Origin: Bradyrhizobium diazoefficiens
GTDB lineage: Bacteria; Pseudomonadota; Alphaproteobacteria; Rhizobiales; Xanthobacteraceae
Reading direction: 5' to 3'
Assembly (NCBI RefSeq): GCF_018131185.1
Contig: NZ_JAFCJE010000001.1
Span: 400,001 to 464,000 of the forward strand
DNA length: 64,000 bases
Of the stretch, positions 3,300-7,521 are shown one piece after another. Within the stretch, counting starts at the first letter, position 1. The number at the start of each line of letters is the position of its first letter. The translations under genes and the position numbers were made by a program. The notes under the pieces are model-generated. The model searched no databases. It had not been told where the DNA came from and saw only the letters and a list, made by a program, of their open reading frames with translations.

Positions 3300-3977
3300 T
3301 TACGCCGCCGCCTCTTCGCTTGCCCTCAATCTCTCCTCAGTCATCCGTCCTGCCGTCTGCGCATGCGCCAACGCCGTGCGTTCGGCTGCCTTGGCGTCGC
3401 CCGCGAGAATGCGTGCGGCGATGTCGGCATGCTCCGCCCAGGCGCTGCCGCGATAGTCGAGCTCCGACAGCACCGTCGCCATCGAGCGGCGCATATGCGG
3501 CCATTGCGGCGCGATCGTCTCCTCGATCACGGGATTGCCGGCGAGCTGATAGATGGCGCGGTGAAAATCGACGTCGAGCACGATCAGCTCGGCGAGCGTC
3601 GTCGTGCGGTCGATGCGGCTGCCGGCAGCGAGCGCCGCTTCCACCCGCGCGCGGCCGGCCGCGTCGTAGCCCGCGCGCTCCGCTGCGAGCCCGGCGGCGA
3701 GCGCATCGATGGCGCCCCTCACCTCGTAGAGCTGGCGGAGGCGTGAGGGGTCGAGCTGGGTGACCTCGAAGCCGCGCCTGCCGCTTTCGGCGACCAATCC
3801 CTGCCGGTGCAGCAGATGTAGCGCATGCGATACGGGCTGTCGCGACACGCCGAGCTTGTCCGCCAGCTCGTTCTGCCGGATGCGCTGGCCGGGCTGCAGC
3901 GTGCGGTCGGAGATCGCCTCCAGGATCCGGGCATAGACCTGGTCGATCAGGTTCGGGAGCGGGTCGAGAGGGATCAC
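3300..3977 (-). CDS. GntR-family transcriptional regulator, FCD subfamily
   Basis: The 225-residue protein has an N-terminal winged helix (LIDQVYARILEAISDRTLQPGQRIRQNELADKLGVSRQPVSHALHLL, roughly residues 10-60). An all-helical FCD domain follows, with typical metal-site residues (DVDFHRAIYQLAGN and later HADIAARIL). FCD domains bind carboxylates. The GTG start at 3977 is preceded by GGAG at good spacing. The longer upstream reading would run through the 20-bp palindrome at 4003-4022, which is better explained as the operator. It probably represses itself and the downstream dioxygenase, oxidoreductase and TRAP genes. Confidence 0.9.
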   Translation of the reverse strand: MIPLDPLPNLIDQVYARILEAISDRTLQPGQRIRQNELADKLGVSRQPVSHALHLLHRQGLVAESGRRGFEVTQLDPSRLRQLYEVRGAIDALAAGLAAERAGYDAAGRARVEAALAAGSRIDRTTTLAELIVLDVDFHRAIYQLAGNPVIEETIAPQWPHMRRSMATVLSELDYRGSAWAEHADIAARILAGDAKAAERTALAHAQTAGRMTEERLRASEEAAA

Positions 3978-4002
3978 GCCGGCAGCTCCGAAGAATAAAT
4001 AG

Positions 4003-4022
4003 GAATACGGAATTCCGTATTC
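4003..4022. promoter_or_regulatory. perfect 20-bp palindrome, likely GntR operator
   Basis: GAATACGGAATTCCGTATTC is perfectly self-complementary and ends 26 bases upstream of the GntR start codon. FCD-type GntR proteins bind short AT-edged palindromes of this size. Its position suggests autoregulation. Confidence 0.75.
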
Positions 4023-4151
4023 GAAGATATCGCTGGAGGGCGATGGCGTCAAGATGGGTGCAAGATGGGGCGGCAGGCCGGCGCTAAGCCATTGACATCA
4101 CTGGCCTCGTTTACTGTGCATGGGGTTGTTTTCGCCAAAAAGATATCGGCC

Positions 4152-5021
4152 TCAGCCCTCCAGCACCTCCACCTCAAGCGCAGCAATCCGTTCCGCATCG
4201 GCCAGCGCCTCGATCCCGGTAATGCGGTCGTCTCTGATCGTCACGCGCAGCGCGATGCGCAGCTGTCCGGCGAGGATGACGGCGACGCCGATCTCGCCAT
4301 CGACCAGCGCGGTCCGCGCGGCCCGCGCGCGGCCCTTGTAGACCTGCGCGACCGCATCGGCGCCGCGGATCTCCGGCAGCGAGCCGAGCCGCACCGCGGC
4401 GTCGTCGGCGCGGAAAACGACATCGGGATCGAGCACGGCGAGCAGCCCCTCGAAATTGCCCTCGCGCGACGCCTTGAGGAAGGCATCGACGATGCCGCGC
4501 TGGCGCGACATGTCGGTCTCGGGCACCGGCGCCCCCTGCACGCGCCGCCGTGCCCGGCTCGCGAGCTGCCGCGACGCGTCGACCGAGCGGTCGACGATCG
4601 GTGCGATCTCCTCGAAGGGGACTGCGAACATGTCGTGCAGCACGAAGGCGAGCCGCTCCGCCGGCTGAAGTGTTTCCAGCACGACGAGCAGCGCCGCGCC
4701 GACGGAATCGGCCATCTCAGCCTCGCGCTCCCGCGTGTCGTCGACCGGCTCGGGCACATGCGGGCCCATCGGATCTTCCTTGCGCGACTTCCGTGCGCGC
4801 AGCATGTCGAGGCAGATGCGCGCGACGACGGTCGTCAGCCAGCCGCGCAAATTCGCGACGTCGGACATGTCGTAGCGACTGACACGCAGCCATGCCTCCT
4901 GCACGGCATCATCGACCTCGGCGCGGGACCCCAGCATCCGGTAGGCGACCGCGCGCAAATGGTCTCTGCTGGCCTCGAACTGATGGCTGAGAAAATCCTG
5001 TTCAGAGTTTTTTTGGGTCAT
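4152..5021 (-). CDS. ECF RNA polymerase sigma factor, ECF41-like, with SnoaL-like C-terminal domain
   Basis: The 289-residue protein has sigma region 2 (about 15-80, including DDAVQEAWLRVSRYD), region 4 (about 118-165, including PFEEIAPIVDRSVDASRQLASRARRRVQG) and an NTF2/SnoaL-like extension (about 175-289). ECF41 factors lack a classic anti-sigma factor, and the extension modulates their activity. The family's WLPEP linker motif is altered here (GPHVPEP), and the usual glycine-rich motif in the extension is not clear (FRADDAAVRLG). ECF41 genes typically sit beside an oxidoreductase, epimerase or carboxymuconolactone decarboxylase-like gene. Here that partner is divergent at 5120. A candidate autogenous promoter lies at 5058-5084. 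Confidence 0.92.
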   Translation of the reverse strand: MTQKNSEQDFLSHQFEASRDHLRAVAYRMLGSRAEVDDAVQEAWLRVSRYDMSDVANLRGWLTTVVARICLDMLRARKSRKEDPMGPHVPEPVDDTREREAEMADSVGAALLVVLETLQPAERLAFVLHDMFAVPFEEIAPIVDRSVDASRQLASRARRRVQGAPVPETDMSRQRGIVDAFLKASREGNFEGLLAVLDPDVVFRADDAAVRLGSLPEIRGADAVAQVYKGRARAARTALVDGEIGVAVILAGQLRIALRVTIRDDRITGIEALADAERIAALEVEVLEG

Positions 5022-5022
5022 C

Positions 5023-5049
5023 GGTCACATTCCCTGGTCGCGATCCGTC
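5023..5049 (+). promoter_or_regulatory. candidate ECF41-type promoter for the AhpD-like gene
   Basis: GGTCACA (5023-5029) and CGTC (5046-5049) are separated by exactly 16 bases. The published ECF41 pattern is TGTCACA then CGTC with about this spacing, so one base differs. Transcription would start near 5056 and read into the gene at 5120. Confidence 0.7.
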
Positions 5050-5057
5050 ATGCCCAT

Positions 5058-5084
5058 GACGAAGCCAATCCGGCCGATGTGACC
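5058..5084 (-). promoter_or_regulatory. candidate ECF41-type promoter for the sigma factor gene (mirror image)
   Basis: On the minus strand GGTCACA (5084-5078), 16 bases, then CGTC (5061-5058) repeat the same pattern in the opposite direction. The two -10 elements form CGTCATG-CC-CATGACG, centred between 5053 and 5054. The two promoters overlap and cannot both hold polymerase at once. Confidence 0.65.
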
Positions 5085-5119
5085 GGAACCTTCGAAATTC
5101 GAACGATGGAGACGAAAAG

Positions 5120-5575
5120 ATGCATGCCCGCATGAATCACCCCGTCATGGTCCTCCCCGAAGCCATGAATGTCCTTCAGTCCCTCGGCAGTTTGACCAAG
5201 CAGGGGCTGCCGGAAAAGCTCCTGGAATTGGTGCACCTGCGCGCCAGCCAGATCAATGGCTGCAGCGTCTGCGTCGACATGCACCCCAAGGTCGCGCGCA
5301 AGCTGGGGGAGACCGACGAGCGCCTGTTCGCCGTATCCGCCTGGCGCGATGCGCCCTATTTCACCGACGCCGAGCGTGCCGCGCTGGCGTTGACCGAAGC
5401 CGTCACGCGCCTCGCCGATCGGGAGGATCCGGTGCCGGATGCGATCTGGAACGAGGCCGACAAGCATTTTGACGAGCGCGAGCTGGCAACCCTGATCGTC
5501 GCGATCGCGACCATCAACGTCTGGAACCGGCTGAACGCGACGATCAAGATGCCGGTCGGTGTGTGGAAGGTGTGA
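5120..5575 (+). CDS. carboxymuconolactone decarboxylase / AhpD-like family protein
   Basis: The 151-residue protein belongs to the CMD/AhpD fold. C48-S-V-C51 followed by H55 (CSVCVDMH) is the AhpD-type redox motif, so a peroxidase or disulfide-exchange role is more likely than a true decarboxylase. WNRLNATIKMPVGVWKV is a typical family C-terminus. The ATG at 5120 has GGAG ten bases upstream; a second in-frame ATG lies four codons on. It is divergent from the ECF41 sigma gene and has a matching promoter at 5023-5049, so it is the predicted target of that sigma factor. Confidence 0.9.
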   Translation: MHARMNHPVMVLPEAMNVLQSLGSLTKQGLPEKLLELVHLRASQINGCSVCVDMHPKVARKLGETDERLFAVSAWRDAPYFTDAERAALALTEAVTRLADREDPVPDAIWNEADKHFDERELATLIVAIATINVWNRLNATIKMPVGVWKV

Positions 5576-5752: not shown

Positions 5753-6565
5753 CTACTCCGCCAGGAACCGGTTCACCACCTCGCCGAACTCGAGCGGGGC
5801 CTGCTCGAACATCCAATGGCCGGCGTTCGGAATCACCGCCGTCTTGGCGCCTGCAATGTGCGCGGCCAGCACGCGCCACATCACCGACAGGCTTCCTGTC
5901 GTCGCGCCGCCGCCGATCAGCAGCGTCGGCGTCCTGATCGCCTGCGCATCGCTAAGCGTGTAGGGTCTGCGCTGCTCGTTGATCTGGCCGAGGAAGGTCA
6001 GCGCGTTGTCGCGCAGCTGCTGCTTGGCCGCCGCCGGCACGCGCCGCCAGGAGCCGTCGCCTTCGATTCCCTCGTAGAAATTCTGCAGCGCGCCCTCGAT
6101 ATCGCCGGCGCGGATCATCTCGACCGAGCGCACGGTACGCGCGGCGAGCGACGGGTGGCCGGGCGTGCCGTCGGGCACCGGCAGGGATGCATCGAGATCG
6201 CCGCCCGGCTCGGCCAGCACCAGTTTCCGCAGCAGATCAGGCCGTGCCTGCGCCACGCGGAATGCGATATGGCCGCCGCGGGAATGGCCCATCAGATCGA
6301 CGGGTCCGGGTCTCACCTGCGCGATGAAGGCAGTCACGTCGGCCACATGCTGCGCCATCTTGTAATCGTCGCCGACGGCATCCCAATGTTCGGGGAAGAA
6401 GTGCCGCAGGCTGACCGAGATCACGCGGTGCGTCTTCGAGAGCGGGCCGAGCACGGAATACCAGGTGCGGAAATCCCCGAGCGTGCCGTGCACGCAGACC
6501 AGCGGCGGGCCCTCGCCGACTTCGAGATAGGCCATGTCGTAACCGTTGACGTGGAATGTCTGCAT
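5753..6565 (-). CDS. alpha/beta hydrolase (tandem copy 2)
   Basis: The 270-residue alpha/beta hydrolase shows the oxyanion-region motif VCVHGTLGDF, the nucleophile elbow GHSRGG (Ser near residue 95) and a late catalytic His in PNAGHWMFEQAP. There is no signal peptide, so it is cytosolic. It is a close paralogue of the gene immediately upstream on the same strand; only two bases separate the two genes and the N-termini (MQTFHVNGYDMAYLEVGE / MQSLHVNGYDMPYLDVGE) nearly match. An ester, lactone or epoxide hydrolase role is possible. The substrate is unknown. Confidence 0.88.
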   Translation of the reverse strand: MQTFHVNGYDMAYLEVGEGPPLVCVHGTLGDFRTWYSVLGPLSKTHRVISVSLRHFFPEHWDAVGDDYKMAQHVADVTAFIAQVRPGPVDLMGHSRGGHIAFRVAQARPDLLRKLVLAEPGGDLDASLPVPDGTPGHPSLAARTVRSVEMIRAGDIEGALQNFYEGIEGDGSWRRVPAAAKQQLRDNALTFLGQINEQRRPYTLSDAQAIRTPTLLIGGGATTGSLSVMWRVLAAHIAGAKTAVIPNAGHWMFEQAPLEFGEVVNRFLAE

Positions 6566-6567
6566 GC

Positions 6568-7386
6568 TCAGCTCGCCAGAAAATCCAGGACCATTTCGGA
6601 GTATTTCTGCGGCGCCTGCTCGAACATCGGATGCGTCGCATTCGGGATGACCGCCGTCCTGGAATAGGGCACATGCGCGGCCAGCGCATGCAACACCTTT
6701 GGCAGCAGCCCCTTGGTCCGCGCGCCCAGGACGAACAGCGTCGGCATCTTGATGGACTCCGCATCCGCCTTCGAGAACGGCGGGCGGTTGTCGCGGACCT
6801 GGCCGATCAGCGTCATGGCGTTGTCGCGCAGATTCTGTTTCACCATCGCCGGCAGCCGCGGCCAGGTGCCGGCCCCTTCCAGCGTATCGACGAAGACGGC
6901 GAGGCCGCCGTCGACATCGCCGGATGCGATCTTCTCGGCCGAGGCCGTGAACCGCGCCAGCAGCGGTGACGGGCCGCCGACGTAATCAGGGTCGAGGCTC
7001 ACATCGAGTTCACCGCCGGGCTCGGCCAGGACCAGGCGGCGCAACAGATCAGGCCTCCGCTGTGCCACACGGAAGCAGATATGCCCGCCGCGGGAATGGC
7101 CCATCAGGTCGACCGGACCAAGGTCGAGCTTCTCGATGAAGCCGATGACGTCCTGGACGTGCTGCTCGATCGAATAGGTGTCACCGACGCCGTCCCAGCG
7201 TTCCGGGAAGAAGTGCCTCAGGCTGACGGCGATTACCCGGTGCCGCTGGCTCAGCGGTCCGAGCACGCAGCCCCAGACGCGGAAATCGTTGAGCGAGCCA
7301 TGCACACAGACCAGAGGCGGACGGCCCCTGTCCTCGCCCACGTCGAGATAGGGCATGTCGTATCCGTTAACGTGGAGGCTTTGCAT
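6568..7386 (-). CDS. alpha/beta hydrolase (tandem copy 1)
   Basis: The 272-residue protein has the same layout as its downstream neighbour: VCVHGSLNDF, nucleophile elbow GHSRGG, and PNATHPMFEQAP with the catalytic His. The start at 7386 (MQSLHVNGYDM) matches the paralogue's start exactly. A longer in-frame reading to 7659 has no similarity to the paralogue and would overlap ogt, so I rejected it. Long shared blocks (ISVSLRHFFPE / IAVSLRHFFPE, VDLMGHSRGGHI, KLVLAEPGG / RLVLAEPGG) show a local duplication followed by divergence, mostly in the cap region, which suggests different substrates. Confidence 0.88.
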   Translation of the reverse strand: MQSLHVNGYDMPYLDVGEDRGRPPLVCVHGSLNDFRVWGCVLGPLSQRHRVIAVSLRHFFPERWDGVGDTYSIEQHVQDVIGFIEKLDLGPVDLMGHSRGGHICFRVAQRRPDLLRRLVLAEPGGELDVSLDPDYVGGPSPLLARFTASAEKIASGDVDGGLAVFVDTLEGAGTWPRLPAMVKQNLRDNAMTLIGQVRDNRPPFSKADAESIKMPTLFVLGARTKGLLPKVLHALAAHVPYSRTAVIPNATHPMFEQAPQKYSEMVLDFLAS

Positions 7387-7521
7387 GCGAGGCTCGCGAG
7401 GGACCGGAACTCCTGTGCAAGATCCCCGGAAACCGGGTGGATCGCAACTATTTCCAAGCCTAGATTTGGACAGAGATCTCATTGGGGGCGTGCGACAAGG
7501 ACGCAAGCCAGGAACCGATCC

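Follow-up and report, generated by a model that had tools for sequence, protein, structure and literature searches.

A 62-bp element located between two divergent genes, one encoding an ECF41-like sigma factor and the other its CMD/AhpD-like partner, is probably a bidirectional promoter that would serve both autoactivation of the sigma factor and expression of the partner, RNA polymerase binding being predicted to be mutually exclusive in the two directions. It lies in a stretch of 64,000 nucleotides of the Bradyrhizobium diazoefficiens genome, called here the window, and consists of two ECF41-type promoters forming a true dyad, on which sequence and conservation agree. The original prediction had described a copy of GGTCACA, 16 bases and CGTC on each strand, the two copies mirroring each other around position 5053.5, with fused -10 elements. 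This description was right to the base: the two -10 elements together form CGTCATG-CC-CATGACG around that axis. The coordinates of the features are given in Table 1.

Table 1. Features of the sigma-factor locus and its promoter dyad (positions in the window).
Feature	Position	Strand	Basis or remark
GntR-family gene adjoining the sigma gene	3300-4052		
Sigma-factor gene, 289 aa, SigJ/ECF41-like, putative SnoaL-like C-terminal extension	4152..5021	-	
CMD/AhpD-like partner gene, 151 aa, CxxC (CSVC)	5120..5575	+	
Face-to-face promoter dyad, whole element, 62 bp	5023..5084	both	half-sites read in sequence and conservation
Partner-ward promoter, -35 GGTCACA	5023..5029	+	sequence; ECF41 consensus TGTCACA (PMC3426412)
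Partner-ward promoter, -10 CGTC	5046..5049	+	sequence; spacer 16 bp
Sigma-ward promoter, -35 GGTCACA	5078..5084	-	sequence
Sigma-ward promoter, -10 CGTC	5058..5061	-	sequence; N16 spacer
Dyad centre, 8 bp	5050..5057	.	length fixed, letters variable (23 different centres among 38 loci, all 38 of them 8 bp long)
Partner RNA, predicted start G	5058	+	leader 62 nt to ATG 5120; predicted for this strain
Sigma RNA, predicted start G	5049	-	leader 28 nt to ATG 5021; predicted for this strain
Sigma gene, likely ribosome-binding site AGGGAA	5030..5035	-	predicted from sequence; within the partner-ward promoter spacer
Partner gene, likely ribosome-binding site GGAGA	5108..5112	+	predicted from sequence

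The consensus to which both promoters had been assigned is indeed established, TGTCACA-N16-CGTC having been published in 2012 (PMC3426412). Both -35 elements of the window agree with it at six of seven bases, and both promoters combine a 16-bp spacer with CGTC, which fits the definition of ECF41 promoters (spacer of 16 ± 1, -10 CGTC). As such promoters require, the dyad is placed ahead of both the COE-type (CMD) gene and the sigma gene. Its two -10 elements are 8 bp apart, and each overlaps the opposite predicted start rather than using common bases. Across dyads, the first base of the -35 element is most commonly T on the sigma-ward side and G on the partner-ward side, and GGGAA, in the region of the sigma-gene ribosome-binding site, is kept. 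The spacer immediately following the sigma-ward -35 is also often conserved, as TCGGCCGG (dyad positions 8-15; window 5070-5077, minus strand). This conserved stretch goes beyond the known consensus and also falls within the partner RNA leader.

The CMD gene adjoins the sigma gene, the flanking genes encode an alpha/beta hydrolase and a regulator of the GntR family, and no anti-sigma gene was found beside the sigma gene; Wecke et al. 2012 described this arrangement for ECF41 and COE genes. The sigma factor matches Sigma70 regions 2 and 4 (PF04542 and PF08281). Its best curated model is SigJ, with a score under the cut-off of that model, and the match of its C-terminal part to SnoaL_2 is weak (23.7 bits for a curated cut-off of 27). 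The alignment with the solved structure of M. tuberculosis SigJ (5XE7), which extends over nearly the full length (E 4.9e-42), nevertheless speaks for a putative SnoaL-like extension. SnoaL-bearing ECF groups named in the literature include ECF294 and ECF295. The Sigma70 regions and the COE neighbour fit an ECF41 sigma factor, but three motifs do not. DGGG and NPDKL occur in none of the 136 sigma factors of the dyad clade, compared with 26/26 and 24/26, respectively, of the codirectional relatives, and the window sigma has DDAA and DAERI in their place. The linker motif WLPEP reads HVPEP in the window; the dyad clade does not conserve its W, which is present in all 26 codirectional relatives. 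In a FastTree phylogeny of the sigma factors, one branch divides those with dyads from the codirectional ones. Because the dyad clade lacks DGGG, NPDKL and the W of WLPEP, we call the protein ECF41-like on the basis of its sequence rather than filing it as a canonical ECF41. An ORF of 356 aa running across the dyad (4065-5135, plus strand) lies antisense to the sigma gene, and we did not take it for a real gene. On the partner side, two adjoining alpha/beta-hydrolase genes (5753-6565 and about 6568-7390, minus strand) have similar N-termini, MQTFHVNGYDMAYLEVGEG and MQSLHVNGYDMPYLDVGED, and look like a tandem duplication.

The two half-sites are the only matches to the GGTCACA/CGTC pattern in the window, even when spacings of 14-18 are allowed. 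At these spacings 0.24 matches were expected by chance and 2 of 100 shuffled sequences reached two. Scanning the 6.94-Mb genome for KGTCACA-N16-CGTC, a check proposed with the original prediction, gave 9 matches, two of them at the dyad, against 1 for a reversed-pattern control, and the dyad is unique: no second full dyad was found within the genome. Six of the seven other matches were examined and four of these six lie inside ORFs, for which reason a wider regulon built on these matches was mostly rejected. Neither a sigma-70-like promoter nor a terminator was found between 4900 and 5700, and a search of Rfam families gave no match.

In order to follow the element in relatives, we used two sets of loci, in both of which common ancestry means that counts are not numbers of independent events. 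The first comprises 41 loci, all from Pseudomonadota, that were picked on the sigma protein alone and scored for half-sites, a single mismatch being tolerated over all counted positions together. In this comparison, which had been proposed with the original prediction, both half-sites are present in 38 of them, and loss of a single half-site was not encountered in close relatives. The distance between the two CGTC is exactly 8 bp in all 38. In the same loci the CMD start lies at a varying distance from the dyad (31 to 82), whereas the start codon of the sigma gene begins one base past the dyad in 35/38. One locus, L192 (G1277:C19:24770-25627), has a single in-frame TGA in the sigma frame with its dyad intact; the gene may be decaying or recently mutated, or the sequence may contain an error. 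Among the three loci without a dyad, L194 and L195 are codirectional operons in which the CMD gene precedes the sigma gene and a single promoter-like match points the same way, and L164 has divergent genes with two weaker promoters arranged back to back. In L164 (2412-2520) the partner side keeps CGTC-ATGGGAAT-GACC, resembling half a dyad. In more distant relatives (33-44% identity) the CMD gene is mostly codirectional and upstream, and none of them has a promoter pair ahead of the sigma gene.

The second set was selected on DNA alone. About 85,000 species genomes were scanned for GTCACA-N16-CGTC-N{0..30}-GACG-N16-TGTGAC with exact half-sites, which leaves the gap free, and at least 119 loci were obtained. 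Among the matches listed, the gap is 8 in 106/119 although 31 gap lengths were allowed; the others are 9 (5 loci), 11 (3 loci) and 5, 10, 21, 23 and 24 (one each). An ECF41-like sigma gene is close by, on the correct side, in 114 of these 119 matches, 103 of which have a gap of 8. The remaining 11/114 are dyads with another gap next to a sigma gene, and a gap of 8 is consequently not an absolute requirement. Loci with a gap of 8 that could be placed in the tree represent, among the matches listed, at least 34 genera, 23 families and six phyla (Pseudomonadota, Actinomycetota, Acidobacteriota, Chloroflexota, Myxococcota and Dormiibacterota); L135 adds Armatimonadota, bringing the dyad to at least seven phyla. 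The partner is often other than CMD (glyoxalase/VOC, MFS, FAD-binding, PNPOx, ABC, NmrA-like, DUF1059, TrmO or GH16), and the geometry of the dyad thus persists while the target gene changes among several unrelated partners. A class-wide search with exact half-sites in 289 genomes drawn evenly gave a match in this genome only, because few of the sampled genomes carry the sigma factor.

These data bear directly on whether two ordinary promoters simply lie close to each other by accident, their symmetry being meaningless. A divergent sigma gene and partner each need a promoter within a short intergenic region, and the back-to-back arrangement of L164 does occur. However, the gap stays at 8 in all the protein-selected dyads despite the drifting distance to the partner, and the distribution of gaps in the DNA-selected set already refutes the accident. 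Near-identical copies are excluded as its cause by the 23 different centre sequences and by sigma identities going down to about 55% in the dyad loci. We thus regard accidental proximity as extremely improbable: the dyad is not a product of chance, its conservation being far beyond random expectation.

The length of the centre can be related to the position of the start site. In S. meliloti SMb20029-rpoE9, TGTCACA-N16-CGTC lies 9 nt upstream of a mapped start (PMC3616915). The promoter is printed elsewhere as TGTCACA-N16-CGTC-ATGGTGTC-G (PMC6180224), whose final G we read as the start because of the 9-nt statement. According to Wecke et al., transcription also begins at a G in two further species (PMC3426412). 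In our data, 18 codirectional loci with a single promoter have a purine at position 9 after CGTC in 18/18 cases and a pyrimidine at position 8 in 17/18. Among the matches listed, 17 of 22 promoters from dyads with a gap other than 8 have a pyrimidine-purine step (YR) at positions 8/9, compared with 2-7 at neighbouring positions. Two such dyads in Nocardiopsis (L082 and L143, gaps of 21 and 24) keep YR at position 9 in both directions and provide natural cases of separated promoters. The search pattern itself dictates position 9 in dyads whose gap is 8, and these cannot test the start signal, so the argument rests on the single-promoter loci and the dyads with other gaps. Judged from these sequences, the start signal sits at position 9 after CGTC.

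When the gap is 8, position 9 coincides with the G that pairs with the final C of the CGTC on the other strand, and position 8 with the T that faces the conserved A of CGTCA (A 92%, T 89%). A start located 9 nt after CGTC therefore falls on the opposite -10 element. The predicted starts of the window are 9 bp apart, and not about five as first proposed. We infer the reason for the fixed gap from the observed sequence, conservation and spacing and from the position-9 signal of independent promoters: the simplest one is that a single insertion or deletion would misplace both initiators at once.

The following mechanism is consistent with this geometry. RNA polymerase carrying the sigma factor of the adjacent gene would bind the dyad either way, the same sigma presumably driving both sides. 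Binding in one orientation would lead to transcription of the sigma gene, that is, to positive autoregulation, and binding in the other to transcription of the CMD partner. For transcription one way, CGTCA would act as the -10 element; for transcription the other way, its reverse complement TGACG would supply the initiator T(-1)G(+1). Nearly identical base pairs would be melted in both open complexes, leaving room for one polymerase at a time; it is this almost entire overlap of the predicted open complexes that suggests mutual exclusion. On average both genes would rise together, and the half-sites would set the split between them. Following from the predicted starts, and as originally proposed, the RNAs would diverge without overlapping and each would cross the opposite promoter. 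Published ECF41 promoters are activated by their own sigma factor (PMC3426412); promoter recognition by the present clade is assumed by analogy, its conserved motifs differing from those of the tested ECF41 proteins.

The original prediction went further and proposed a switch-like consequence, in which exclusion commits the locus to either sigma or partner expression. Overlapping promoters cannot both be occupied, and autoactivation of the sigma factor constitutes a positive feedback loop. Both promoters, however, are of the same class and presumably need the same holoenzyme, whose binding has no memory, and the geometry by itself does not give two stable states. Among measured systems the bidirectional promoters of E. 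coli come closest, and there competition matters only where activity on one side is strong (PMC12825309). Neither a second regulator tied to the promoter pair nor a component that would store a state was seen at the locus. We thus consider a switch improbable and would expect coupled co-activation instead.

Even less probable is that a dimeric regulator uses CGTCA-N6-TGACG as its operator, the geometry of the dimer fixing the spacing. The arms are perfect over 7 bp in the window, and a fixed distance between half-sites is typical of dimer operators, but these arms are the sigma -10 elements plus one base, and dyads with gaps other than 8 retain promoters and start signals. The operator was rejected since, across dyads, neither symmetric conservation nor covariation extends beyond CGTCA.

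A last alternative keeps the bidirectional promoter and changes the reason for its spacing, which would have been selected for competition, as a brake on autoactivation and a means of fixing the sigma/target ratio. The retention of the geometry across phyla and partner swaps and the almost complete overlap of the predicted open complexes are compatible with such selection. The placement of both initiators accounts more simply for the same data, and several dyads with other gaps restore YR at positions 8/9, as it predicts; we therefore see selection for competition as possible but rather unlikely. Equally tentative is the self-limiting design that would follow, where a lineage of alternative sigma factors would long have retained one 62-bp two-way promoter, each partner-ward initiation would sterically block a sigma-ward one and so restrain autoactivation, and the geometry of the DNA would set the sigma/target ratio whatever the target.

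Promoters ahead of both genes at divergent ECF41 loci have been known since 2012, and bidirectional promoters, too, are an established class. In the 55 divergent ECF41 loci listed by Wecke et al., the motif was found at 36 of the sigma genes and 41 of the COE genes (PMC3426412). Those loci share with ours TGTCACA-N16-CGTC before the sigma and/or the COE gene, whereas the palindrome, the face-to-face overlap, the fixed 8-bp centre and the sharing of start sites are not mentioned there. Bacterial bidirectional promoters (Warman et al. 2021; 2026, PMC12825309), whose starts are commonly 10, 18 or 23 bp apart and flank or lie within a shared -10, resemble the dyad in being pseudo-symmetric, with close opposite starts and with the exclusive binding that is predicted for the dyad. 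Those described are, however, promoters of the housekeeping sigma-70, while the dyad has two full -35/-10 sets of an ECF-type sigma, predicted starts at a distance of 9 bp and a single geometry retained across phyla. S. meliloti SMb20029-rpoE9 has the same motif and the 9-nt spacing that would explain the 8-bp centre, but in a single promoter of a codirectional operon and not in a dyad. In bioA/bioB, counted among the studied E. coli bidirectional promoters, the promoters also face each other and each RNA crosses the opposite promoter. That pair is controlled by a separate repressor; in the dyad, by contrast, the product of one arm would be the sigma factor that reads both arms. The face-to-face geometry, the invariant 8-bp centre and the -10/start reciprocity were not found in the literature searched, an absence that is not proof.

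If this reading is true, the dyad would be a bidirectional promoter of an alternative sigma factor that is base-pair-exact across phyla and target swaps. It offers a way to test to what extent a single sequence can double as -10 element and start site, and how competition between promoters affects a self-activating sigma factor. CGTCA-N6-TGACG with flanking TGTCACA would also offer a clean signature for finding such sigma loci and their targets.
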